Shown here: one piece after another, positions 1 to 10,616 of the stretch
Layout of the letters: every line of letters starts with the position of its first letter
Numbering within the stretch: position 1 is the stretch's first letter
Assembly: GCA_023249255.1 (NCBI GenBank)
Contig: JAHFCY010000107.1
Span: forward strand, 1-10,616
DNA from: Candidatus Lindowiibacteriota bacterium
GTDB lineage: Bacteria; Lindowbacteria; 2-12-FULL-62-27
Direction of reading: 5' to 3'
DNA: 10,616 bases
Translations under genes and position numbers: made by a program
The notes under the pieces: generated by a model
Database searches by the model: none
The model's input: the letters and a program-made list of their open reading frames with translations, nothing else
Told to the model about the DNA's origin: nothing

Positions 1-186
1 ATGCGGCAGATGCAGGCGGCGAAGCCCCGGCCGAACATTCCAAACTACGGCGTCCTCGAGACGATCTGCAACGCCGAGATGGAGCTGGCGCTGAAGGGCA
101 TCAAGACGGTTCCGCAGGCGCTCCAGTCAATGGGCGAGCTCATTGACCGAAAACTTCTCGTGCAGTTGAACGTTCCCTCCTCCTGA
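1..186 (+). CDS. ABC sugar-type solute-binding protein, C-terminal end (partial)
   Basis: Only the last ~61 residues are in the window; the gene very likely begins upstream, and the Met at base 1 is probably internal because no signal peptide follows it. The visible part has the look of the C-terminal helices of family 1 extracellular solute-binding proteins (MalE-like): a Lys-Pro-Arg-Pro-x-Ile-Pro-x-Tyr stretch (residues 8-16), then an amphipathic helix with 'ALKGIKTVPQAL' and a final helix ending 'IDRKLL'. In such proteins this segment follows the hinge and closes the C-lobe. The role would be periplasmic capture of a sugar, plausibly maltodextrin given the CBM48 genes and amylase in the window, but the substrate cannot be read from this fragment. 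It ends in TGA, 77 bp before the next gene on the same strand. Confidence 0.6.
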   Translation: MRQMQAAKPRPNIPNYGVLETICNAEMELALKGIKTVPQALQSMGELIDRKLLVQLNVPSS

Positions 187-263: not shown

Positions 264-1730
264 ATGAGCCACACACAGACGCGCACAGACATGCACAGAC
301 ACAGACAGGATGCGCCGGGTGGTGGTGTATCTCGCAGTTGGATAATCTTGATGTTGCCTGCGTGCCCGCCTCCGGTGTTTTGGCGGGTCGCCGCACTGGC
401 AATTGCGGCTTGCCTGTTGCCCGTCCGTCTTTCATACGCCAGGCCGATCCGGTTTGAGGGATTTTACGAATTCCGGACGGACATCAATCTGGAGAATGCG
501 TCCTTCGCGCCGAACGTCGAGGCGGACGGCACTTCAAATCGAGGCGCGAAAAATTATTTTCAGGGACGAATCTACGCCGATCCCGCGCCGGGCGTGAACA
601 TGTATTCCAAATTCGAGCTTGATTCCAAAAGCGACGACAAATATCGCTACGCCGAAGGCCATATGTTTTTGAAGAAATCGGTTAACAAAAAAACTCTCGA
701 ATGGATTCTATTCGACAGCCAGGAGCGGTTTAACATGGGAGATCCGTTGCTGGATGTCACGGGCAGTCAGGGGGATATTCGAGGCATGCGAATGAACGGG
801 TATGCATGGGGTGGATGGCTGCATCTTTATCAAGGCCGCTTCAAGAATGAGAATGCGGATGCGTTCGGTTTTCGGATCGGGAAGAATTTCTTTGCAAAAA
901 ACAGGTTGATGCTGGGCGCGACCGCGGTCCGGAAGGTCTGGCCGACCGGATACGACGACGTCGTCGGGACGGACGTGACCGTTCGATTCAGTGAAGCGGA
1001 ACTCGCGATTGCCGGCGCCACGTCCTACACATCGAATTACGCGCCGGGCGGCCGCAATATTTTTCAATCGGAACTTCGAAATATCCGAATATCCAACCGC
1101 CGACTCGGTAGTCTGCGCATGACGTCCACGTTTCGGGACTACTTCCCCGGATATCGGAACTATCTGGGGAAGGACCCGGAGAAACGGGAATCCGGAATGT
1201 ATAACGAACTGATTTACGAGGTTCCGCTCAAGGCGCTCCGGCTGACGTATCGTGATGACCGCAAGCGAGAGCGGCGGTCGTATATCCTCATCAATCCCGA
1301 GCGCCGGACGAACTGGTGGTATTTTGGGGGATACGCGGAATTTCAAAAAGGATACAGGGCCACGCTGTCTCACGAGGGTTACAACGACCCTTGGAACAAC
1401 AACATCGACCGTCCCGCGTGGTTTGCCCAGATCGAATCGTACTCCCGGTACAATACGCTGAAGTGCTATTTCAGACGCAACGACGATGGAAACCGGTATC
1501 AGAACGATGAATTCAGCGTCGAGAACAGCCACACGTTTTCGACAAACCTCTTTCTCATGATCAGGACGATTCACCGGTACACCTACGAATCCGATTTGAG
1601 TCAAAACAGCGTCTTCACACAAATCCGATACCGGGTCCGTGACAACGGAAACGTCCTGCTCGAATTCGGCAACAACGGTTCGACGACAACCGACCGGATA
1701 CTCAAAACGATTTTGCAACTCTGGTGGTGA
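264..1730 (+). CDS. Outer-membrane beta-barrel protein, family not recognised
   Basis: This is a 488-aa exported protein. A hydrophobic segment (about residues 43-60) ends in an Ala-type cleavage site (LSYA before RPIRF). The rest is alternating polar/hydrophobic strands rich in Tyr, Trp, Arg and Asn, with short turns, ending in 'ILQLWW'; a C-terminal aromatic is typical of barrels inserted by the BAM complex. I do not recognise the family and see no CBM or plug domain. The start is uncertain: the ATG at 264 sits in a CACAGAC repeat and lacks a good ribosome site, and the in-frame ATG at 351 would give a more normal 30-residue signal peptide. Its last codons (TGG TGG TGA) act as a Shine-Dalgarno-like sequence for the next gene, so the two are probably translated together. 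A role as sugar channel or surface scaffold is inferred from neighbours only. Confidence 0.7.
   Translation: MSHTQTRTDMHRHRQDAPGGGVSRSWIILMLPACPPPVFWRVAALAIAACLLPVRLSYARPIRFEGFYEFRTDINLENASFAPNVEADGTSNRGAKNYFQGRIYADPAPGVNMYSKFELDSKSDDKYRYAEGHMFLKKSVNKKTLEWILFDSQERFNMGDPLLDVTGSQGDIRGMRMNGYAWGGWLHLYQGRFKNENADAFGFRIGKNFFAKNRLMLGATAVRKVWPTGYDDVVGTDVTVRFSEAELAIAGATSYTSNYAPGGRNIFQSELRNIRISNRRLGSLRMTSTFRDYFPGYRNYLGKDPEKRESGMYNELIYEVPLKALRLTYRDDRKRERRSYILINPERRTNWWYFGGYAEFQKGYRATLSHEGYNDPWNNNIDRPAWFAQIESYSRYNTLKCYFRRNDDGNRYQNDEFSVENSHTFSTNLFLMIRTIHRYTYESDLSQNSVFTQIRYRVRDNGNVLLEFGNNGSTTTDRILKTILQLWW
271..309 (+). repeat. CACAGAC tandem repeat, 10-bp period
   Basis: Three successive 10-mers ending in CACAGAC (271-280, 281-290, 291-300) are followed by a fourth partial unit (ACAGACAGG). 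A looser relative (GCAGAAAGACGCAGACG) lies just upstream at about 236-252. If the ATG at 264 is used, the repeat encodes the His/Thr/Arg-rich n-region of the signal peptide; if the ATG at 351 is used, it is leader sequence. A related string occurs at 5448-5474. Confidence 0.65.
1723..1730 (+). promoter_or_regulatory. Ribosome binding site formed by the Trp-Trp-stop codons of the upstream gene
   Basis: GGTGGTGA differs by one base from GGAGGTGA, a strong anti-16S match, and lies 5 nt before the ATG at 1736. It is made of the end of the upstream reading frame (TGG TGG TGA). This decides the choice of ATG 1736 over the GTG codons at 1724 and 1727 and implies translational coupling. Confidence 0.5.
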
Positions 1731-1735
1731 AATTC

Positions 1736-3985
1736 ATGACAGGCAACAGGCAAGTGGCATTTGCCACACCGGCAACAGGCAACAGCAGGATCAATACGTA
1801 TATTGATGTTGTCGTATCTACTGACCGGAAACAAGTCTCCCTGTCCGCTACATCTCCCGTGTTCTTTTTCGTCTGTCTTTGTTTACTGTTGCCTGTTGCC
1901 TGTTGCCTGTTGCCTTCCGATAAAGCGTACGCGGGTCCATTACCCCCCGAGTTGACCGATGGCGGGGTGATGTTTCAGTTTGAGGATGACGTGGCGGAGA
2001 AAGTAAATGTCGCCGGGGAATTCAACGGATGGAACCAGAGTTCTTTGCCGCTGTCGCGCGAGGGCGGCAAGTTCGTTCTGGTCGTGCCGATCAACGAGGG
2101 GAAATACAAATATAAATATGTGATCGACGGCGTATGGATGACGGGCGACGATCTGACGCTCAACATCATCCGACGGGACGGCAGGCTCTACATCTATCCG
2201 CGTCAGCCCTATCTGCGGTTTCCGTTCAGTTCGAAAGTGGATTTCGACGGGTATTATTTATTTTTGTCAAAATTCACGGACGACGTCGACGGCGCAGGCG
2301 GAAAAATGAGGATATCAGCCCCCCGAAACGACATCGACCTGAATTTCGACATCCATCCGACCGACATTCTGCACGCGTGGGCACAACTCAACGTGAACAC
2401 CGTGAACAACGACGACAAGGTGAATTTGGACGAGGCGTATTTGGAACTGACGATGGGCAAGTTCACCTTACGTCCGTTCGAAACGCACTGGAACATCGAG
2501 TTCGACGATCCGTTCCGCGCGCTGGACGCGTACGTCCAGAATTTCGACGATGAAATCTATCTGACGGACGACGAGCGGCCTTTCTATCACGAATACGGCC
2601 GCTACGCGCGCGGATTCAGCGGTGACGTGAAGGCGGGCAAGTGGCTCGGCCAATTTTTCTTTTCGAACAAGGTCCGGCTGGATCAAAGCGCGCTCGACGA
2701 GGATTTGATGGGATTTCGGGTGAAACACAGCGGGCGTTGGATCACGTGGGGCCTCACCTACACGCAGTGGCAGATTCCGAACGGGATCAAGGCGGACGAA
2801 AACAACGATGGTCAGACGACCGAGAAAACGTTGCTGAATCTGGACGGCAGGACCATTGAGTATCCGGAGGGCTCCGGCTCGTTTTATCAGGCGGAATTTA
2901 TCCGGCAGGTGAGGCCGGGCGGGCAGAACCGGAAAATTCAGACCGGCGTCGACGCCGCTGTGACGTTTGGATCGTGGAAACTGTTCACGGAACTTTTGTC
3001 GACGCAGAGTGACGCCGCCGCGCTGGCCTATTCGCTTGGCGCGGAAAAGGCTTTCGGGTTTGCTTACGGCCATTCAATTTCCGGTTCGGCAGCGGCGATT
3101 GAAAACACGTATGGCGAACAGTCCGACGGATTGTCGCTGTTGCTGGGCCTGATTTATCGCGGCCGGACGTGGGCGAATGAATTCAACTTTCGATTCTACA
3201 ATTATCGAGCAAAAACGTTTGGATTTTCCAACTTGCTTGGAGTGCAGGTTCCCACGGCCACGCAATGGGATACAGGCCTGACCAACGTCACGCCCGAGTG
3301 GTTTGAACTCATTCATCGACTGGAACTCAACCGCACGCCCAATTCCCGATGGGGGATCGGGATAGAAAGCCGCTACGTGAGCCGGTCCGAACTGGCCAAG
3401 GGGAACGTCTTTTACAAGGAGCGGATTGCTCCGTACCGGTACCTGTTCGCCGAACTGCCGTGGGCCAAGACCACGCTGTCCGAGCGGATGGAGTTTTCTT
3501 GGAAGTTGACACAGCATCTGACCTATCAGTCGAAACTTGATTATATGAAGGTGGACACAACCAAAAAATTCGGTATTTTCACGGAACACCATGCGACCCG
3601 GTCAGCCATGCCTCAATTAAGCTGGAGATTCGCGGAACGCTGGCAGGCCGACGCCGGCCTGCGGTATGTTTATTACAAACTGTCATTTGCCGACACGACG
3701 TCAACCCCTCTCGGAACCGGCAGTTTCAGTCAAGCCAAGCCGTACGGGGGCATCCGATACGAGTGGTCGAAACTGTTTCACATCCGATTGTGGTACGGGC
3801 TGGATCCTTACGTTGATGAGGACAAGAAATTAGGCGCGGCCTGGAGGATCCAGGATTTATTCGAACCATCAGCCGAGGGGTTCACGGACGGATTCGGTGC
3901 AACAGTCTACGACATTTTGAATTTCGCCGAGAAACGCTTCGATCGGGAATCCGTCTTCGGCTTGCAAGCCGAGTTGAGGTTTTGA
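1736..3985 (+). CDS. CBM48/AMPK-beta-type glycogen-binding domain fused to an outer-membrane beta-barrel
   Basis: About 749 aa in three parts. First is a very long signal peptide (residues 1-66): a ~40-residue polar n-region built partly on GGCAACAG repeats, then a hydrophobic core containing 'LLPVACCLLP' and the site 'KAYA'. Second is a CBM48/E-set domain (about residues 70-145) with the family pattern V-x-V-A-G-x-F-N-x-W, a Gly-Lys-Tyr-x-Tyr-Lys-Tyr strand and 'DGVW'; the two Trp and the Lys correspond to glucan-contacting residues in AMPK-beta glycogen-binding domains. The remaining ~600 residues are a long series of amphipathic strands ending in 'FGLQAELRF', a typical barrel-closing strand. 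The domain order predicts a barrel presenting a starch- or glycogen-binding module; which side it faces is not known. It follows the preceding barrel gene by 5 nt and overlaps the next gene by one base (TGATG). GTG codons at 1724/1727 are alternative starts. Confidence 0.82.
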   Translation: MTGNRQVAFATPATGNSRINTYIDVVVSTDRKQVSLSATSPVFFFVCLCLLLPVACCLLPSDKAYAGPLPPELTDGGVMFQFEDDVAEKVNVAGEFNGWNQSSLPLSREGGKFVLVVPINEGKYKYKYVIDGVWMTGDDLTLNIIRRDGRLYIYPRQPYLRFPFSSKVDFDGYYLFLSKFTDDVDGAGGKMRISAPRNDIDLNFDIHPTDILHAWAQLNVNTVNNDDKVNLDEAYLELTMGKFTLRPFETHWNIEFDDPFRALDAYVQNFDDEIYLTDDERPFYHEYGRYARGFSGDVKAGKWLGQFFFSNKVRLDQSALDEDLMGFRVKHSGRWITWGLTYTQWQIPNGIKADENNDGQTTEKTLLNLDGRTIEYPEGSGSFYQAEFIRQVRPGGQNRKIQTGVDAAVTFGSWKLFTELLSTQSDAAALAYSLGAEKAFGFAYGHSISGSAAAIENTYGEQSDGLSLLLGLIYRGRTWANEFNFRFYNYRAKTFGFSNLLGVQVPTATQWDTGLTNVTPEWFELIHRLELNRTPNSRWGIGIESRYVSRSELAKGNVFYKERIAPYRYLFAELPWAKTTLSERMEFSWKLTQHLTYQSKLDYMKVDTTKKFGIFTEHHATRSAMPQLSWRFAERWQADAGLRYVYYKLSFADTTSTPLGTGSFSQAKPYGGIRYEWSKLFHIRLWYGLDPYVDEDKKLGAAWRIQDLFEPSAEGFTDGFGATVYDILNFAEKRFDRESVFGLQAELRF
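1740..1785 (+). repeat. GGCAACAG repeat cluster, left arm of an inverted repeat
   Basis: CAGGCAACAGGCAA (1740-1753) and GGCAACAGGCAACAG (1771-1785) flank a small hairpin, GTGGCA-TT-TGCCAC (1754-1767). The second copy is the exact 15-bp reverse complement of bases 1886-1900. All of this lies inside the coding sequence for the signal-peptide n-region of the CBM48 barrel protein. Confidence 0.75.
1886..1914 (+). repeat. Heptanucleotide (CTGTTGC) x4, simple sequence repeat in a coding region
   Basis: Four perfect tandem copies of CTGTTGC occupy 1886-1913, with the next C also matching. They encode the Leu-Leu-Pro-Val-Ala-Cys-Cys core of the signal peptide. Because 7 is not a multiple of 3, gain or loss of one copy would shift the frame of the ~690 codons downstream. 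The array is also the right arm of the inverted repeat with 1771-1785. Confidence 0.8.
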
Positions 3986-4986
3986 TGTTGGATGTAGTGA
4001 AGGGTAACGAGAAACGAGTAACGAGCCGTGGGTCACTGCCGAATTTACCCGTTACCCCTGCCTGCCGGCAGGCATGGCGTTACCCGTTACTCGTTACGTT
4101 TGTTCTCTGGGCAACCATCGCCGTCGCGTCGGGCGAGAAATCATCCGGCGCGGATTTTTTGCGGATCGATCCCGGAGCGCATGCGGCGTCGATGGGCGGG
4201 TCATTTTCGGCGCTGGCGGAGGACGTGCAGGCGCTGTATTACAATCCGGCGGGTCTGGCGCTGGTCGGCCACACGCAGTTCACGGCCAGTCACATGGAAT
4301 GGTTGGCGGGGATGCAGTCAGAATACGCGGCGATGGCGTTTCCGGCCGGGTCGATGGGCTGGGGCGTCAGCATGTCTTATCTTCACTCAGAGGAAACAGA
4401 ACGCGACGCGTTGGGCCGCGCCGGTGCAACGTTCGGGGTGGGTGACGGGGCGCTGACGGGTGGATTGGGCGTGCGGTTGACCGAACATCATCATGTCGGA
4501 ATGTCAGTGAAATTCCTCCAGCGCCATTTGTATCATCGAAGCGCGAATGGATTCGCTGCGGATCTTGGGTATCAGTACCGCATCCAGGACGGGACCGGAG
4601 CGTTTTGGAAATTCGCGTTCACGCTGAAAAACGCCGGACCGGGAATCGGATTTGCGATCAAGGAAAAAATGCCGACGGAACTTGAGGGCTCGGCCGCGTG
4701 GCAGCCGATGGTGTGGTATCGCCGGCCGCTCACGCTGACGGTCGCGCTGAATCAAGGATCTGCGCAGGACGGCATCGGTGGCCGAATCGGGATCGAGGGG
4801 ACGATCTTGAGCCGGTTTCATCTGCGCGCCGGATATTTCGGTTCGCGGCAACGCTCTGAAAAACTCCGCGTTGGTTTTGGCGTCGATTTGTTTGATCTCG
4901 GCCGGATCGATTTCGCGGCGATCCGCATTGACCGATTCAATTCGAGTCTGCTCATGTCGCTGACATTGCAGACGGCCGGAAAATAA
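3985..4986 (+). CDS. PorV/PorQ (UPF0164)-family outer-membrane protein
   Basis: This is a 333-aa protein. After a signal peptide ending near residue 49 (core 'LLVTFVLWATIAVASG'), residues 55-92 carry the family signature: 'GADFLRIDPGAHAASMGG', then Ala-Leu-Ala-Glu-Asp, then 'ALYYNPAGLA'. This matches the PorV/PorQ/UPF0164 pattern of an N-terminal Gly-Met-Gly turn followed by a Trp/Tyr-Asn-Pro-Ala-Gly-Leu motif. The rest is Gly-rich amphipathic strands. FadL-like barrels of this family are known as shuttle or attachment partners in type IX secretion, but also occur in lineages without it. The start is ATG 3985, overlapping the previous stop as TGATG, with GAGG 5 nt upstream; a TTG at 3982 is less likely. 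The first ~36 residues are encoded by GTAACGA repeats and a palindrome and look like an insertion in the n-region. Its position between two CBM48 genes suggests a role in assembling or anchoring a glucan-binding complex (inference). Confidence 0.78.
   Translation: MLDVVKGNEKRVTSRGSLPNLPVTPACRQAWRYPLLVTFVLWATIAVASGEKSSGADFLRIDPGAHAASMGGSFSALAEDVQALYYNPAGLALVGHTQFTASHMEWLAGMQSEYAAMAFPAGSMGWGVSMSYLHSEETERDALGRAGATFGVGDGALTGGLGVRLTEHHHVGMSVKFLQRHLYHRSANGFAADLGYQYRIQDGTGAFWKFAFTLKNAGPGIGFAIKEKMPTELEGSAAWQPMVWYRRPLTLTVALNQGSAQDGIGGRIGIEGTILSRFHLRAGYFGSRQRSEKLRVGFGVDLFDLGRIDFAAIRIDRFNSSLLMSLTLQTAGK
4002..4096 (+). repeat. GTAACGA-type inverted repeat with a perfect 16-bp palindrome in its loop
   Basis: The left arm (4002-4025) holds GGGTAACG and AACGAGTAACG. 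The right arm (4078-4096) holds CGTTACCC and CGTTACTCGTT, their exact reverse complements (8 and 11 bp). A further copy of TTACCCGTTACCCC is at 4045-4058. Between the arms lies TGCCTGCCGGCAGGCA (4059-4074), a perfect palindrome. The whole structure is translated in frame as part of the PorV-like signal peptide. An RNA hairpin starting 17 nt after the start codon could affect initiation. Confidence 0.75.
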
Positions 4987-4990
4987 ATGG

Positions 4991-5000
4991 AAAGGTGGAG
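4991..5000 (+). promoter_or_regulatory. Strong Shine-Dalgarno without a canonical start codon in the right frame
   Basis: AAAGGTGGAG is a near-consensus ribosome site. Five nt downstream, in frame with the CBM48 lipoprotein, is ATC (5006), not ATG, GTG or TTG. A TTG at 5001 and an ATG at 4987 exist but are in other frames. This site is the main argument that translation begins well upstream of the first canonical in-frame codon at 5051. Confidence 0.5.
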
Positions 5001-5050
5001 TTGTCATCCAACCCAAACCGCCCGACTCTGTATTTAAGATTGCTGTTGCC

Positions 5051-5443
5051 TTGTCCGCCATGCTGCTGGCCGGCTGTGCCGTCCTGAAAGACCGTCTGCC
5101 GCCTCCGGAGGCGACCGACCACGGCATTTTCTTCCGCTACGAGGACGCGGCTGCGTGGCGCGTCGAGGTCGCGGGACAGTTCAACGATTGGAAAACATTC
5201 CCGGACGAGAGATCGGTCCAGATGAGCAAGGACGAAAAGGGTGTCTGGACGGTGGTTGTGCCCTACAAGGAATTCAGCAAGAACGCGCAGGTCTACGTCG
5301 AACCCGGCCGTCGGTATCTCTACAAAATCGTCATCAACGGCACGTCCTGGATCGAGGATCCGAACAATACCCTGAAAGGCGTTGAAGGCGGCCAGACGAA
5401 TTCGATGATCATCGTGCCGGAGCAGAAGACGGCCGGGAAATAG
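5051..5443 (+). CDS. Small lipoprotein consisting of a CBM48-like glycogen-binding domain
   Basis: The coordinates use the first canonical in-frame start (TTG 5051, 130 aa); the real start is probably upstream. A lipobox Leu-Ala-Gly-Cys places the lipidated Cys at residue 9 of this version, too short an n-region for Lsp processing. The upstream frame reads 'PKPPDSVFKIAVALSAML', a textbook lipoprotein signal with Lys before the core, and would begin at ATC 5006. The mature part is one E-set/CBM48 module: 'VEVAGQFNDW', then Gly-Val-Trp-Thr-Val-Val-Val, a 'GRRYLYKIVING' strand and 'SWIEDPNN'. The two Trp and the Lys match the glucan-contacting positions of AMPK-beta-like domains, and the layout parallels the domain in the upstream barrel. 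No catalytic domain is present. Likely role: membrane-anchored capture of starch, glycogen or maltodextrin. It converges on the alpha-amylase gene 46 bp away. Confidence 0.75.
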   Translation: MSAMLLAGCAVLKDRLPPPEATDHGIFFRYEDAAAWRVEVAGQFNDWKTFPDERSVQMSKDEKGVWTVVVPYKEFSKNAQVYVEPGRRYLYKIVINGTSWIEDPNNTLKGVEGGQTNSMIIVPEQKTAGK

Positions 5444-5447
5444 GGGA

Positions 5448-5474
5448 GACGGGCGGACTGACGGACAGACACAG
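5448..5474. repeat. GACGGAC/CAGACACAG short repeat between convergent genes
   Basis: The 46-bp gap between the lipoprotein stop and the amylase stop contains GACGGGCGGACTGACGGAC followed by AGACACAG, a degenerate relative of the CACAGAC repeat at 271-309. I see no strong stem followed by a T run that would act as a terminator for either gene. Confidence 0.4.
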
Positions 5475-5489
5475 AAATTCCGTGGAAGA

Positions 5490-7277
5490 TCAGCGGTAAT
5501 ACAGACTGCAAACAATTCGGCCAAAATTACAACGAAGCAAATAGGTGTCGCGAAACGAGCGCAGGCGCGCGAGACGGTCGGGTCGCATGCCGATTTGTTG
5601 AAAGAGACAGGCCGAGGGGAATGACAAGGTTTTCACGTCGTCACAGGATCCGATCCGCGGGGTATCCGCAGGCGCGTAAATTTTCACGCCAAGCGCCGGG
5701 ATGCTGACGCTGATTTGATTGCTGTCGTGGACGCCGGTCCCGGTCAGGACCGTGTCGGTCACGTCGAACAGGTTGTAGAGGACCTTGCCGGACGGATAGG
5801 ACGTCGAGATGCCTGTATCGCCCGTTCCGGTGGTTTTGGTCGAGGTCGCGGTGTTGAGGACGATCAGTATTTCCGCGTCTGTGTCTTTTCGGCTGTATGC
5901 ATAGAGGCCGCCTGCGCCGGCCGTTGACCATCGCTCGATTTGCGTGCCGCGCCGAAGCGCCGACCATTGTTTCCGAAGACTTGCCTCCTGCTGGATATAA
6001 CAGTACAGCGAATGCGACGTATTGAAGTTGTCTCCGTCGGACGGGCCAAAATCCCACTGTCCGTCCCACATGTCCTCGCGATTGTACGGGTCACTGCCGC
6101 CATCGAATCCTTGTTCGGTTCCGTAGTAGAGGATGGGCACGCCCGCTTGGGTCAACAGAAATGTCGCGGCAAGTTTCAGGTTGGGGTGGTAGGCGGCGGC
6201 GTTGCCGGCCGGAAGAAAACGGGCCATGTCGTGATTGTCAAGGAACGTCACCAGCCGGTCGCGGCTTGACGTGTCATAGAGCGTCAGATTTTTGTACGTC
6301 GCGCCGATTTCGCTTGTGGCCGCGCCTTCTTTAAAGACCCGTTTGATCGTGTTTTGCATCGGAAAATAGAGCATCGAATCGAAAATGAACGTATCCTTGT
6401 CCGACATCGTTCCCGTGTACGCGCCGACTTTGGTGTCGCTGTAATCGAAATCCTCGCCGAACATGAAAAATTTGGTTTTTCCGAGGTTGGCCGCGTATTG
6501 CCGGACGGCCGGGCAGAAATATTGCCAGAATCCCAGTTCCACGTGTTTCACCGTGTCGATGCGAAATCCGTCGACGTCGCCTTCCCTGATCCAGTACGAA
6601 TACACCTGAAACAGGGCAGTGCGGACGGTCGTGGATTCGGTTTTCAAATCGTCGAGGCCAAAAAGTTCGCCGTAGGCGAGTTGGGTGTCGCTCGTGTAAT
6701 CGTCGATGCCGCCGTGCGCGTGATAAAAATTCAGGTTGGCGAACGTGTCGGGCTGATGCTGAACGCTCGCGCTGTGATATTGGAGCGTATAGGTCGCCGG
6801 ATACTTGAACGTGTAGCTTCCGGACGTCGTGCCGATGAGGTCGCCCGTGTGGTTGGTGACGATGTCGAGGATCAACACCATCCCGCGGGAGTGGAGATCG
6901 GCCGCGAGGTCTTTGAGGTCCTGCAGAGTGCCGAGTTTCGGATCGATCGACATGAAATCAGAAGCGGCGTAGCCGTGATAAGCGTTGTAGTTTTTCACCA
7001 CCGGCGTGATCCAGATGCCCGTCGCGCCGAGAGACTGGATGTAATCGAGTTTCGCACGGATACCCTTGAGATCGCCACCGTGGATGCCGGATCCGTTGGC
7101 CGGATCGTACGTTCCGTTTGCGCTGTTGTTCGCCGCATCACCGTCGTAAAACCGGTCGGTGACGACGAAATAAATGAACTGATCCCTCCAGTCCTGCGGC
7201 GAGGCTTGAACGGCCGCCGCCGGCCGGGCCGACATCAAGATGGCAATCGAACAAACAGCCCACGCCTCCCGGATCAT
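5490..7277 (-). CDS. Secreted alpha-amylase (glycoside hydrolase family 13)
   Basis: This 595-aa protein hydrolyses internal alpha-1,4 bonds of starch-type glucans. A Sec signal peptide (residues 1-22, ending Ala-Ala-Ala) has no lipobox. The GH13 barrel begins with 'DQFIYFVVTDRF' (32-43) and has all four conserved regions: I, DIVTNH (138-143); II, GFRIDTVKH (237-245) with nucleophile Asp241; III, Glu275 as acid/base in Gly-Glu-Asp; IV, FLDNHD (345-350) with Asp350. A B-domain loop spans about 144-205, and a beta-rich domain C about 450-537. The last ~50 residues (545-595) are an extra Cys-containing tail with 'LRSFRDTYLL' and 'GRIVCSLYYR', resembling the short C-terminal motif usually introduced by CFIATAAYG, here with a degenerate head and cut off after Tyr-Tyr-Arg. 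The start (ATG 7277) has only a weak ribosome site (GGTAG). It converges on the CBM48 lipoprotein and probably supplies the sugars handled by the plus-strand genes. Confidence 0.92.
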   Translation of the reverse strand: MIREAWAVCSIAILMSARPAAAVQASPQDWRDQFIYFVVTDRFYDGDAANNSANGTYDPANGSGIHGGDLKGIRAKLDYIQSLGATGIWITPVVKNYNAYHGYAASDFMSIDPKLGTLQDLKDLAADLHSRGMVLILDIVTNHTGDLIGTTSGSYTFKYPATYTLQYHSASVQHQPDTFANLNFYHAHGGIDDYTSDTQLAYGELFGLDDLKTESTTVRTALFQVYSYWIREGDVDGFRIDTVKHVELGFWQYFCPAVRQYAANLGKTKFFMFGEDFDYSDTKVGAYTGTMSDKDTFIFDSMLYFPMQNTIKRVFKEGAATSEIGATYKNLTLYDTSSRDRLVTFLDNHDMARFLPAGNAAAYHPNLKLAATFLLTQAGVPILYYGTEQGFDGGSDPYNREDMWDGQWDFGPSDGDNFNTSHSLYCYIQQEASLRKQWSALRRGTQIERWSTAGAGGLYAYSRKDTDAEILIVLNTATSTKTTGTGDTGISTSYPSGKVLYNLFDVTDTVLTGTGVHDSNQISVSIPALGVKIYAPADTPRIGSCDDVKTLSFPSACLFQQIGMRPDRLARLRSFRDTYLLRCNFGRIVCSLYYR

Positions 7278-7297
7278 CGAACTACCGTAGCACGGTC

Positions 7298-7346
7298 GCT
7301 GTGCTTTGTAATGCAGTCAGAATGCCCAGTAGCGGGAAAGCACAGC
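7298..7346. promoter_or_regulatory. Ten-bp inverted repeat upstream of the amylase gene
   Basis: GCTGTGCTTT (7298-7307) and AAAGCACAGC (7337-7346) are exact reverse complements 29 bp apart, starting 20 bp before the amylase start codon. A second pair, CCCAGTA (7325-7331) and TACTGGG (7386-7392), interlocks with it. This may be an operator or a leader hairpin controlling the amylase. I cannot recognise a -35/-10 pair with confidence. Confidence 0.4.
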
Positions 7347-7392
7347 AGCCGCCCCTTAAGAGGCCGCGACGCGGATGCGCAATCTTACTGGG

Positions 7393-7412
7393 AAAACGGG
7401 GAAGTCCTCCCG
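7393..7412 (-). terminator. Possible weak intrinsic terminator after the metal permease gene
   Basis: Read on the minus strand, CGGGAGGACTTCCCCG followed by TTTT starts 2 nt after the permease stop codon. The stem is short (four GC pairs, then a bulge and two weaker pairs), so termination would be partial at best. It would separate the metal-uptake operon from the amylase. Confidence 0.3.
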
Positions 7413-7413
7413 G

Positions 7414-8241
7414 TCACTTCGTTCTCAACAACCGTCCTCCCCACTGTTTGATCAGCATGGAGAAAAGCAGTGCGGCACCCATGAGCGTGATGATCATCGG
7501 GCCGCTTGGCCGGTCATAGGAAAGCCACAGTCCGACAATGCCGATGAACGTGCTCAGGGCCCATCCGAAAATGAGTCGCACGCAAAACCGTTCGAAAAAG
7601 AGGGAGGACACGAGCGAGGGCACGATCAAAAAGGTGAACACGAGTAAAACGCCGGCGATCTGGACCGCCGACGTGACCACGATGCCGAAGGTCGCGTAGA
7701 AGAGAAAGTCCCACCCGCGAATCCGTATGCCGGTGCGTTCGGCCTCGTCGGGCTCGAATGTGATTTTAAAGAACGGTTTCCGGAAAAGATAATGGATGGC
7801 GCCGACCGCCGCATAAATCCCCGCCGCTTTCGCAACTTCCCTTCCGGTGACCCACACGATGCTTCCCTCGAGCAGTTCCTTGATGTGCTCGGCGCCCTGC
7901 GGGGATTTGTCGACGACCAGGATGGCTGCGGCGGCCGAGACAACGTAGATCACGCCGATAAACGCCTCTTGGGGCTGGTTGCTTTTTTTGAATCTCGACA
8001 GCGCAAACAGCGCTGCGCCGACGATGGCGAAGGCCAAGGAATAGTTGTATGCCTCGGGGCTGTGCGGGTCGCGCCCGGCTAAAAACGCAAATGCAAATCC
8101 GAGTGCCGAAATCTGGGCGAGCGCCAGATCGACAAAAATGACCTTACGTTCCAGAACGTGAATGCCAAGATATGCGAGGATGCCGGCCAGGACCAGACAT
8201 GCCGCCCCGGGCAGAAGCATGTAGTGATAGTGCGCGATCAT
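7414..8241 (-). CDS. znuB: Metal ABC transporter permease, ABC-3 (ZnuB/TroC) family
   Basis: This 275-aa integral membrane protein is the channel subunit of a Zn/Mn/Fe-type ABC importer. I count about eight hydrophobic segments from 'MLLPGAACLVLAGILAYLGI' onward, matching the family length (260-300 aa). Residues 31-48, 'ERKVIFVDLALAQISALG', correspond to the conserved ABC-3 segment that in classical ZnuB reads like G-D-A-L-A-H; here the His is Gln, a variant I recall from a subgroup of ABC-3 permeases. 'GVLLVFTFLIVPSL' is the other family hallmark. ATG 8241 was chosen because it lies 7 nt after the preceding stop and precedes a clean first membrane segment; a GTG at 8283 would add 14 polar residues overlapping the upstream gene. 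It pairs with the binding-protein gene just upstream. The matching ATPase gene does not follow; an amylase does. The metal cannot be decided from sequence. Confidence 0.88.
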   Translation of the reverse strand: MIAHYHYMLLPGAACLVLAGILAYLGIHVLERKVIFVDLALAQISALGFAFAFLAGRDPHSPEAYNYSLAFAIVGAALFALSRFKKSNQPQEAFIGVIYVVSAAAAILVVDKSPQGAEHIKELLEGSIVWVTGREVAKAAGIYAAVGAIHYLFRKPFFKITFEPDEAERTGIRIRGWDFLFYATFGIVVTSAVQIAGVLLVFTFLIVPSLVSSLFFERFCVRLIFGWALSTFIGIVGLWLSYDRPSGPMIITLMGAALLFSMLIKQWGGRLLRTK

Positions 8242-8248
8242 CGTGCAA

Positions 8249-9412
8249 TCACTTCGGAGCGGGTGTTGCCGGCGCTGTGTCACTGCCGGCCCGCGCCAGT
8301 TCTTTGAGGATCACGTCAAACATGGAAAAATAATTCGTGGCCGCGAGGACGCCGGTAACATCGAGCGGAAGCACGACGACGCGTGCTCCGGTCAGGGCAG
8401 CGATCTGATCGGGAATCCGCCGGGGTTCAAACGGCGCCATGATGAGAATCCGGACATGAGTCTCTTTGATCTGCCCCAGAAGTTTGTCGCGATGTTCCGC
8501 CGAAGGGGGGATTCCCGGCTTTTCCTCGACGGTGTTGATCACGTCCATGTCAAACGCCTGCGCCAGATAACTCCAGGCCTTGTGGTACGTCACCACTTTC
8601 GTCCCGCGTAAAATACGGGCCTGACCCATCCAGCCGCCGAGCTTTGCGTCGACTTTTTCGGATTGGAGAAAATCAAAAAGAATTCCCCGTCGAAGTTTCT
8701 CGGCGAGCTGTTCGCCCCCATACGTCTTGACCAGATCATCTCCGAAAAGTTTCACGTAGAGATTCGCCCTGAATCCGGCCAGATTGGAGTCGTATTCAGC
8801 CGAGTGCGCCGGATCGACGCGCTGAAGTCCACGCGCAATATTCCCGGCAAACAGGATTCCGTTCAGCGGATTCATCCACTGGTGCGGATTTCCAAACGGA
8901 TGGATGTCTCCCTCGGCCCGTGTCAACCGGTCCGGCACTTCAAGGCGCTGAACCCCGTCCGATGCATACACGTGGCCGGGCCGTCCCGGCTGGACCTTGT
9001 CGTTTCCCGCGCCTTCCAGAACGCGCTCGGTCCAGAGTTCGAGATCCATTCCGACTTCGATAAACAGATCCGCGTCGGATACCGCTGCCATCAAACTTGG
9101 CCGCGGAATCACGTAATGGGGGTCTTCAGTCCCCTTGGCCAGAGACTGGACCGTGACGTAATTCCCCCCGACGGACCGCGCGATATCAGCCAGTACCGGC
9201 AGAGTCGTCACCACGCGGATTTCAGCTGAAACCGGATTCGCCATCGATCCGAACAGAATCAGAAGAGCAATTAATCTGTTCTCGGTCGAGTTTGGGAAAA
9301 TTTTAAGGAAACCAGGAAGCCACGAACATATCCGGGTTTTTGATTCCTCCTGCATTCCTGGATTCCTTATGAAATGTTCAACGACATGCCTGAATGGATG
9401 CACGTTTTTCAT
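8249..9412 (-). CDS. znuA: Metal ABC transporter substrate-binding protein, ZnuA/TroA family
   Basis: A 387-aa exported protein that binds a divalent metal for the partner permease. The mature part starts near 'EIRVVTTLPVLADIARSVGG', the standard N-terminus of cluster A-I binding proteins. Expected ligands, numbered from ATG 9412: His99 (Asp-Pro-His-Tyr), His177 (Asn-Pro-His-Gln-Trp-Met-Asn-Pro), His277 (Thr-Tyr-His-Lys-Ala-Trp) and Asp351 (Pro-Leu-Asp-Val). Three His plus Asp favours zinc over manganese, but the His/Asp-rich loop of many ZnuA proteins is missing, so specificity is open. The start at ATG 9412 is supported by GAGGTG 6 nt upstream; GTG 9421 is less likely. The core 'LIALLILFGS' begins only at residue 47, after an n-region partly encoded by an AAGGAATCCAGGAA inverted repeat. 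It lies 10 nt after the porin stop and 7 nt before the permease start, so one operon is likely. Confidence 0.88.
   Translation of the reverse strand: MKNVHPFRHVVEHFIRNPGMQEESKTRICSWLPGFLKIFPNSTENRLIALLILFGSMANPVSAEIRVVTTLPVLADIARSVGGNYVTVQSLAKGTEDPHYVIPRPSLMAAVSDADLFIEVGMDLELWTERVLEGAGNDKVQPGRPGHVYASDGVQRLEVPDRLTRAEGDIHPFGNPHQWMNPLNGILFAGNIARGLQRVDPAHSAEYDSNLAGFRANLYVKLFGDDLVKTYGGEQLAEKLRRGILFDFLQSEKVDAKLGGWMGQARILRGTKVVTYHKAWSYLAQAFDMDVINTVEEKPGIPPSAEHRDKLLGQIKETHVRILIMAPFEPRRIPDQIAALTGARVVVLPLDVTGVLAATNYFSMFDVILKELARAGSDTAPATPAPK
9305..9368. repeat. AAGGAATCCAGGAA-type inverted repeat within the znuA signal-peptide region
   Basis: AAGGAAACCAGGAA (9305-9318) and TTCCTGGATTCCTT (9355-9368) are reverse complements with one mismatch in 14, separated by 36 bp that contain another ATTCCTCC copy. 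The element is translated in frame within the long n-region of the metal-binding protein, between its ATG and the hydrophobic core. Confidence 0.7.
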
Positions 9413-9418
9413 GATCGT

Positions 9419-9424
9419 CACCTC
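9419..9424 (-). promoter_or_regulatory. Ribosome binding site of the metal-binding protein gene, overlapping the porin stop
   Basis: On the minus strand GAGGTG lies 6 nt before ATG 9412 and shares bases with the porin TGA stop codon. It fixes the start and points to coupled translation of porin and binding protein. Confidence 0.5.
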
Positions 9425-10616
9425 ACTTATTGACCCAGTAGGGTTCCGCCGGATGGGAACCGAAAACGAACGTCATCTGCGCGTAAACCGTGGACAGATC
9501 CTGACCCGGTGTCGAATCGATGCGCGGCCCGGCCGTGTTCTGGTATTCATATCCAAGCCGGAACCGGAGAAATTCCGTCGTGTAAAAGGAGACATATCCC
9601 CCGATTTTTCGATCGACCCGGTACTTGTCGGCCAGGTTCTGCGCTACATCGTAGCGACCGCCGACGTACCATTGCTGCGCGGGTTGAAGTTGAACCAGCC
9701 CGTATGCGCCCCATGCGTTTCGTTTCCGGACTTGGACGGCGTCGTCTTCCCGGTTCATGTAAAAAAATTCTCCTTGAATGAGCGTCGACCACAGATTTTT
9801 CGGTTGGAGCGCCCGCCACTTGTACATGAAATCGCCGCCCCATAGATGCGTCGTCTGCTTTCCGATCGCGTCATTATGTCCCACCATCATGCTTGTTCCA
9901 ATTTCGATGAATTCCTGGTCGGAAAGATCTGAAAAATATTTGCCGCGAACGAGATATCCCATACCCCGGTCGGCCGTGTCGCTGAACAGGACTGGATTTT
10001 CGGCGTTAAAAACTTCCATGGTCAAATTAACGCTCTGTCCCGGCTGCTGCAGCGGCATCAGGTAGTTGAATGACAGCCCCTCGGATGTGATTCCATCCTC
10101 TCCGAAAAACCTGACGATCGGCAGTGGCAACGTGGTCTGGGGTTGATCATGCGCGTGGACCTGGTTCAAAGAACCAAACCCCGTTCTGAATTTTCCGGCT
10201 TTCAAGCTGGTTCTTCGCGGCATCTTCGTCAGGATGGCGTAGACTTCCTCAAGGCCAATCTTCGCGTCCGAGTTCGGCGCGTCCTGGGAAACCGACGTGA
10301 TAGCCACGGCTTTGGCGTACGGATCGACGTCACCACGAATATCCAGTTCCAGCTCCCGCATGTTCATGCGATTTGAAATTTCCCTGTTCTCGTCATTGGT
10401 CACAACCCGGTTGTCCAGCCGGCCGGCGAAATCGCCGATGACCGTCATCCGCGGATTGTATTCATTGCCGCGTTTCGTCGGCGGTCTGGCGACCTGCTCC
10501 TCGAGTTCTGACAGCCGGCGTTTCAGGCCGTCGATTTCCTCGTTGACGGATTCGTCCGCCGCAAATCCCGCCGAACATAGAAACAGAATGAAAAACAATG
10601 ACATGACATTCCTCAT
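9423..10616 (-). CDS. Coiled-coil porin-type outer-membrane protein linked to metal uptake
   Basis: A 397-aa protein. Signal peptide 1-19 ('SLFFILFLCSAGFA' core) is followed by a short coiled coil (about 21-44, heptads of Leu/Ile with Glu/Lys/Arg), a common periplasmic anchor or trimerisation element in porins. From about residue 55 amphipathic strands run to near the C-terminus. The segment 'QVHAHDQPQTTLPLPIVRFF' with following Gly-Glu-Asp-Gly (152-175) resembles a motif I recall from outer-membrane proteins encoded beside zinc-type ABC transporters; His154 and His156 could touch metal (inference). The start ATG coincides with the window edge; the signal peptide directly after it suggests the gene is complete or nearly so, with Met5 as an alternative. 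As first gene of the metal unit it probably lets the metal, or a complex of it, cross the outer membrane. Promoter and any Zur-type operator would lie outside the window. Confidence 0.78.
   Translation of the reverse strand: MRNVMSLFFILFLCSAGFAADESVNEEIDGLKRRLSELEEQVARPPTKRGNEYNPRMTVIGDFAGRLDNRVVTNDENREISNRMNMRELELDIRGDVDPYAKAVAITSVSQDAPNSDAKIGLEEVYAILTKMPRRTSLKAGKFRTGFGSLNQVHAHDQPQTTLPLPIVRFFGEDGITSEGLSFNYLMPLQQPGQSVNLTMEVFNAENPVLFSDTADRGMGYLVRGKYFSDLSDQEFIEIGTSMMVGHNDAIGKQTTHLWGGDFMYKWRALQPKNLWSTLIQGEFFYMNREDDAVQVRKRNAWGAYGLVQLQPAQQWYVGGRYDVAQNLADKYRVDRKIGGYVSFYTTEFLRFRLGYEYQNTAGPRIDSTPGQDLSTVYAQMTFVFGSHPAEPYWVNK

Follow-up and report, generated by a model that had tools for sequence, protein, structure and literature searches.

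How fragments of starch pass the outer membrane is largely unknown in Gram-negative bacteria outside the Bacteroidota and Proteobacteria, and the locus considered here, in which modules of the family CBM48 stand on an outer-membrane barrel and on a lipoprotein, raises the question of whether it serves such a passage. The window, that is, the whole stretch of 10,616 nucleotides that was analysed, is contig 35 of a metagenome assembly (G000; 3.35 Mb, 366 contigs, approximately 89% complete) whose source is Candidatus Lindowbacteria. We consider it probable, judging from sequence, that the window carries the outer-membrane half of an operon for the import of alpha-glucan (starch, glycogen or maltodextrin), because the consistent partners of its genes are those of a MalFG-type importer and hydrolases.

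Conservation of the cassette across phyla

With the protein that joins a CBM48 module to a barrel (CBM48-barrel) as the only query, a named scan and a survey of 386 genomes yielded 26 loci from at least seven named phyla; a single-protein scan of the genome contigs gave no match, and a two-sequence alignment used as query did. The titles of these loci name Krumholzibacteriia, Zixibacteriota, Eisenbacteria, Gemmatimonadota, Elusimicrobia, Latescibacterota/'Fibrobacter' (two near-identical metagenome-assembled genomes), one unclassified bacterium and Lindowbacteria. A second barrel gene, barrel1, adjoins CBM48-barrel in 25 of the 26 loci, the remaining one ending at a contig end. The CBM48 lipoprotein follows in 24 (of the other two, one has a two-CBM48 protein and L169 an unrelated 552-residue protein), and a PorV-family gene is present in 21, with four of the five loci without it reaching a contig end upstream. 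The commonest order is PorV - barrel1 - CBM48-barrel - lipoprotein, while in Lindowbacteria PorV comes after CBM48-barrel. At least 15 of the 26 loci have GH13 or GH57 amylases alongside, most of which carry CBM48 or CBM20, and in nine the fetched flank includes MalF/MalG genes. An extra locus, L176, reads MalF-MalG-solute-binding protein (SBP)-barrel1-CBM48-barrel-lipoprotein. A first-pass annotation of the window had suggested looking for the same gene order in relatives, and the order holds far beyond the phylum (26 loci plus L176).

In a control set of 68 loci from the same scan, which have CBM48 and lack the barrel that it is fused to in the cassette, neither barrel1 nor PorV was present and a lipoprotein-like gene was seen in three, against 13/13 for barrel1 and 12/13 for PorV in the cassette loci compared, a figure to be read with the fact that the hidden Markov models for the neighbour genes were built from the first loci found, so that these 13 are partly training loci (L157-L169 lie outside the training). 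Because these neighbours do not depend on the query, a chance neighbourhood is ruled out.

CBM48 modules, putative barrels and the PorV-family protein

The nearest relative carrying the genes is Candidatus Lindowbacteria RIFCSPLOWO2_12_FULL_62_27 (G001; MFPR01000021.1). The gene run that the first-pass annotation had placed at 264-7277 was recovered with the genes and coordinates it gave, and the features of the window are as follows.

1..186, plus strand: 3' end of a gene for an SBP_bac_1-type (MalE-like) sugar-binding lipoprotein, translating to MRQMQAAKPRPNIPNYGVLETICNAEMELALKG... and matching the G001 binding protein at its C-terminus
264..1730, plus strand: barrel1, putative outer-membrane beta-barrel without a Pfam model, ending ...LQLWW, assigned from homologues and a C-terminal beta-signal
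1724..3985, plus strand: CBM48-barrel, with signal peptide, CBM48 module (AMPK1_CBM, CBM_48) and a putative outer-membrane barrel of about 590 residues, ending ...AELRF
1970..2158, plus strand: CBM48 module of CBM48-barrel (residues 83-145; Pfam), its contacts aligned to AMPK-beta1
3982..4986, plus strand: PorV/PorQ-family (UPF0164, FadL-like) outer-membrane protein (NCBIfam PorV_fam, 5.2e-38)
5051..5443, plus strand: CBM48 lipoprotein with lipobox LAGC, 'RLPPP' linker and one CBM48 (CBM_48, 2.4e-8), the true start lying upstream of 5051
5120..5362, plus strand: CBM48 module of the lipoprotein (residues 24-104; Pfam)
5490..7277, minus strand: secreted GH13 alpha-amylase, convergent to the cassette (Pfam Alpha-amylase, 6.3e-62)

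That there are two CBM48-like modules, one on a barrel and one on a lipoprotein, had been proposed from the letters alone, and profile searches bear this out, both modules scoring above the curated Pfam cut-offs. The module of CBM48-barrel reaches 46.3 bits with AMPK1_CBM (5.1e-12; cut-off 26.8) and 32.1 bits with CBM_48 (1.5e-7; cut-off 22.4), and that of the lipoprotein 34.6 bits with CBM_48, AMPK1_CBM staying under its cut-off there; these matches indicate that both are genuine members of CBM48/AMPK1_CBM. The closest solved relatives of the barrel module are the glycogen-binding domains of AMPK-beta, and its residues W103, K131 and W138 align with W100, K126 and W133 of AMPK-beta1, whose mutation has shown that they are needed for glycogen binding (PMC2642990, PMC4032982). 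The AMPK-beta1 sequence in this alignment was entered by hand, and the W, K, W correspondence is also visible against PDB chains. Equivalents of the three residues occur in 12/13 barrel modules, the exception (recorded under L045 and under G001) having F in place of W133, as well as in all the lipoproteins and in 3/3 insertions found in MalG permeases (see below). An equivalent of a fourth contact, N150, is present in every lipoprotein, that of the window thus carrying all four.

The lipoprotein family (12 sequences) keeps an invariant lipobox C, an R, P, P in an 'RLPPP'-like linker, and W, K, W and N. A start at 5051 leaves too few residues for a signal peptide, and between 4987 and 5060 no in-frame ATG or GTG would give a proper one, the ATG at 4987 being in another frame; a rare start codon and an assembly indel are both candidate explanations.

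It might be argued that such modules are structural E-set domains, or only glucan sensors or adhesins, beside ordinary porins in a neighbourhood that reflects co-regulation. CBM48-like modules are indeed abundant in the genome of the window, with 20 AMPK1_CBM matches in total on proteins of varied type, the Lindowbacteria barrel no longer has the N150 contact, and one cassette includes a histidine kinase with CBM48. We nevertheless regard this explanation as quite improbable, since the W, K, W contacts are kept across diverged phyla and conservation extends to the fusion and to the arrangement with these barrels and this lipoprotein. The kinase, encoded beside an Elusimicrobia cassette (L069, 15084-17846), has a sensor part with two CBM48 modules and is likely a glucan sensor. 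Elsewhere in the window's assembly, two pullulanase-like genes (PUD, CBM48, GH13) flank a three-CBM48 protein on contig C87 (L031, 1486-7948).

Neither barrel is described by Pfam: barrel1 matched no family, the barrel part of CBM48-barrel matched no model, and no plug domain was matched in the cassette barrels. Barrel1 is 44% and CBM48-barrel 56% identical to the G001 counterpart, the latter having full-length relatives in many families. A C-terminal beta-signal was found in 40/43 barrel1 and 26/29 CBM48-barrel entries, compared with 0-1 in soluble controls; both window proteins end in an aromatic residue, and their signal peptides were judged by eye. Since the count of amphipathic strands separates barrels from MalE poorly (3.81 versus 3.54 per 100 residues), it was rejected as a barrel criterion and only the C-terminal signal was used. 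Outer-membrane barrels usually have both termini inside. By analogy with this topology the N-terminal CBM48 of the barrel is probably periplasmic, so that of the surface or periplasmic capture suggested by the first-pass annotation, the periplasmic form is the more likely for this module.

The PorV family assignment is confirmed by NCBIfam at 131.4 bits (PorV_fam; cut-off 90). The protein is 57% identical to that of G001 and is one of eight PorV-family matches in its genome, such genes being numerous in every genome searched (8-22 paralogues per genome in most). Since PorV belongs to a family related to the type IX secretion system (T9SS), the two barrels and PorV could represent a secretion or surface-display machine of that sort, in which PorV and barrel1 export or anchor amylases and CBM proteins while CBM48 holds enzymes or cells on the glucan. 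SprA (TIGR04189; cut-off 200) exceeds its cut-off in 8/11 genomes examined, in some loci the genes upstream of PorV end in a CHU_C-like sorting domain, and the NCBIfam T9SS plug model also matches CBM48-like modules. However, all eight SprA-positive genomes are non-Lindowbacteria, whereas the SprA-like matches of G000 (47 bits) and G001 (70 bits) are weak; the SprA_N model matched no control and carries no weight here. The window protein, one of many paralogues, scores 44.7 bits against the T9SS PorV equivalog (cut-off 250) and does not reach the PorQ equivalog cut-off either, and the consistent partner of the cassette is a MalFG-type importer, which argues for import. We therefore find secretion or display unlikely as the function of the cassette, while a T9SS-linked role of PorV in other phyla is possible.

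The inner-membrane importer and the proposed route

The gene order of G001 contig 21, given in the direction of transcription, shows what adjoins the cassette: a CBM20/CBM48 surface protein, a second PorV-family gene, a six-CBM48 protein, MalK and two GGDEF genes are followed by MalF, MalG with CBM48, an SBP_bac_1 lipoprotein, barrel1, CBM48-barrel, PorV and the CBM48 lipoprotein. The two GGDEF-type genes sit between malK and malF (L029, 9124-12823). The binding protein directly before barrel1 matches Pfam SBP_bac_1 (2.7e-34), and ABC_tran and OB_MalK are matched in the same cluster. In the assembly of the window, contig C70 (L033) encodes MalF, a MalG-CBM48 69% identical to that of G001 and a binding protein, with BPD_transp_1 matched twice, and stops where the window starts. 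The first-pass annotation had named a sugar-type solute-binding protein as a flank; the gene is real, and only its last 61 codons (1-186) lie in the window, at what is by sequence the same junction as in G001. Strain variation within the metagenome-assembled genome is the probable cause of the break between C70 and the window. From its predicted genes, the cassette system includes a dedicated MalFG-type ATP-binding cassette (ABC) importer.

A MalG with an inserted CBM48, placed between membrane segments 1 and 2, was found in 3/386 surveyed genomes.

L033 (G000), 877-2247: MalG + CBM48 insertion
L029 (G001), 6814-8190: MalG + CBM48 insertion
L175 (G271), 7846-9162: MalG + CBM48 insertion

By analogy with E. 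coli MalG, this module would lie in a periplasmic loop. The Lindowbacteria insertion keeps W, K and W and has lost the N150 equivalent, and in the other MalG proteins among the survey matches listed the matched stretch begins after the insertion site. To our knowledge this is the first case of a MalG permease with a glycogen-binding module as an integral part, and no paper on one was found in the open-access literature.

The importer also bears on whether the cassette might export or assemble an alpha-glucan, capsule- or glycogen-like, with no import at all. Polysaccharide export systems, as is generally known, also have barrels and a lipoprotein, but the ABC components here are of importer type and come with a binding protein, and the neighbours are GH13 and GH57 hydrolases, with no match to a glycosyltransferase or an export ABC among the neighbour genes scanned, all of which makes export very improbable.

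Under the import reading, glucan would be cut outside by secreted amylases and pullulanases, and the resulting maltodextrins would pass the outer membrane via barrel1 and/or CBM48-barrel. The CBM48 modules on the barrel N-terminus and the lipoprotein would bind long maltodextrins and hold them close to the membrane, until the MalE-like lipoprotein takes them over and delivers them to MalF-MalG-MalK, the MalG of this lineage offering its extra CBM48 in the periplasmic loop. For PorV, the probable role is that of a FadL-like barrel accompanying the others.

Several points weigh against this reading. AlphaFold2 models built from two-sequence alignments reached a pLDDT of only 27 and 28 for the two barrels, and for that reason their putative channel character is read from signal peptides, the C-terminal signals and a sequence rich in strands. 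The N150 equivalent is absent from the window's CBM48-barrel, as it is from the Lindowbacteria and Elusimicrobia barrels. The binding protein is MalE-like at family level only, its nearest solved relatives binding several sugars. The join of C70 to the window is deduced from synteny, the 75-base overlap between the C70 3' end and window positions 1-75 being not identical (67/75, eight mismatches), and absences in the window genome are provisional at 89% completeness. Domain identities, gene order, the glycogen-contact residues and the outer-membrane-type C-termini are observed directly, while we infer from sequence the direction of import, the substrate, the hand-over, the side of the membrane on which the parts lie and what each barrel does.

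The secreted GH13 enzyme, which the first-pass annotation had included as a flank of the system, is a true Alpha-amylase by Pfam, but its linkage does not extend to the relative: the G001 orthologue, 71% identical, is on a contig other than that of the cassette, and this neighbour is thus not conserved within Lindowbacteria. Its C-terminus (5490-5620, ...LRSFRDTYLLRCNFGRIVCSLYYR) resembles a CFI-box-like tail, which is not among the best 25 NCBIfam matches. On the minus strand, at 7414-10616, a porin-like outer-membrane protein without a Pfam match heads a ZnuA-ZnuB metal ABC operon, with no ATPase gene inside the window; its metal ABC genes (7414-9421) were excluded from the cassette as a separate operon.

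Comparison with known uptake systems

Taken across its carriers, PorV - barrel1 - CBM48-barrel - CBM48-lipoprotein together with MalEFGK and amylases may form an undescribed trans-envelope alpha-glucan system of many, mostly uncultured phyla, without SusCD or LamB, in which AMPK-type modules at the barrel, the lipoprotein, MalG and one sensor kinase would relay maltodextrins across the periplasm, an interpretation towards which we lean slightly. No earlier description of the cassette was found in the open-access literature (subscription journals and preprints lie outside this coverage). Found in at least seven named phyla, the cassette would serve to recognise users of alpha-glucan among uncultured bacteria from their genes, and two barrel families without Pfam models gain a testable function.

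The Lindowbacteria sample comprises three genomes (G000, G001 and a third, 81% complete, with no match to the cassette genes). LamB (PF02264) was matched in none of the three, and the TonB plug (PF07715) in neither G000 nor G001, the control genomes being matched in both searches (E. coli for LamB). The absence of SusC and LamB asserted in the first-pass annotation therefore stands for G000 and G001. The other 17 cassette carriers do have TonB receptors, although within the fetched flanks only G366 has one near the cassette. No SusD-like lipoprotein occurred among the window proteins and cassette neighbours scanned with Pfam, the only ones scanned.

The Sus system of Bacteroides (SusCDEFG) resembles the cassette in that a single locus brings together, for starch, an outer-membrane channel, surface lipoproteins with CBMs and a GH13 amylase, and the CBM48 lipoprotein would be functionally analogous to SusE/SusF; unlike Sus, the cassette of G000 and G001 has no SusC with a TonB plug, fuses CBM48 to a barrel and employs an ABC importer at the inner membrane. 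The enterobacterial maltose regulon (LamB, MalE, MalFGK2, MalS) shares with it an outer-membrane channel, a MalE-like protein, MalF-MalG-MalK and a secreted or periplasmic amylase, whereas the cassette has no LamB member, uses unmodelled barrel families, bears CBM48 on barrel, lipoprotein and MalG, and includes a PorV-family member. MalA of Caulobacter is likewise an outer-membrane barrel for maltodextrins, but it is a TonB receptor, while a plug domain was not matched in either cassette barrel. In AMPK-beta, whose glycogen-binding domain is the closest solved relative and has the carbohydrate contacts in common, the module belongs to a kinase regulatory subunit, whereas here it is placed on bacterial envelope proteins. 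As an outer-membrane glycan uptake locus coupled to ABC import, the cassette would be of a known functional kind, but its parts and architecture are unlike those of any alpha-glucan system tested or named here.

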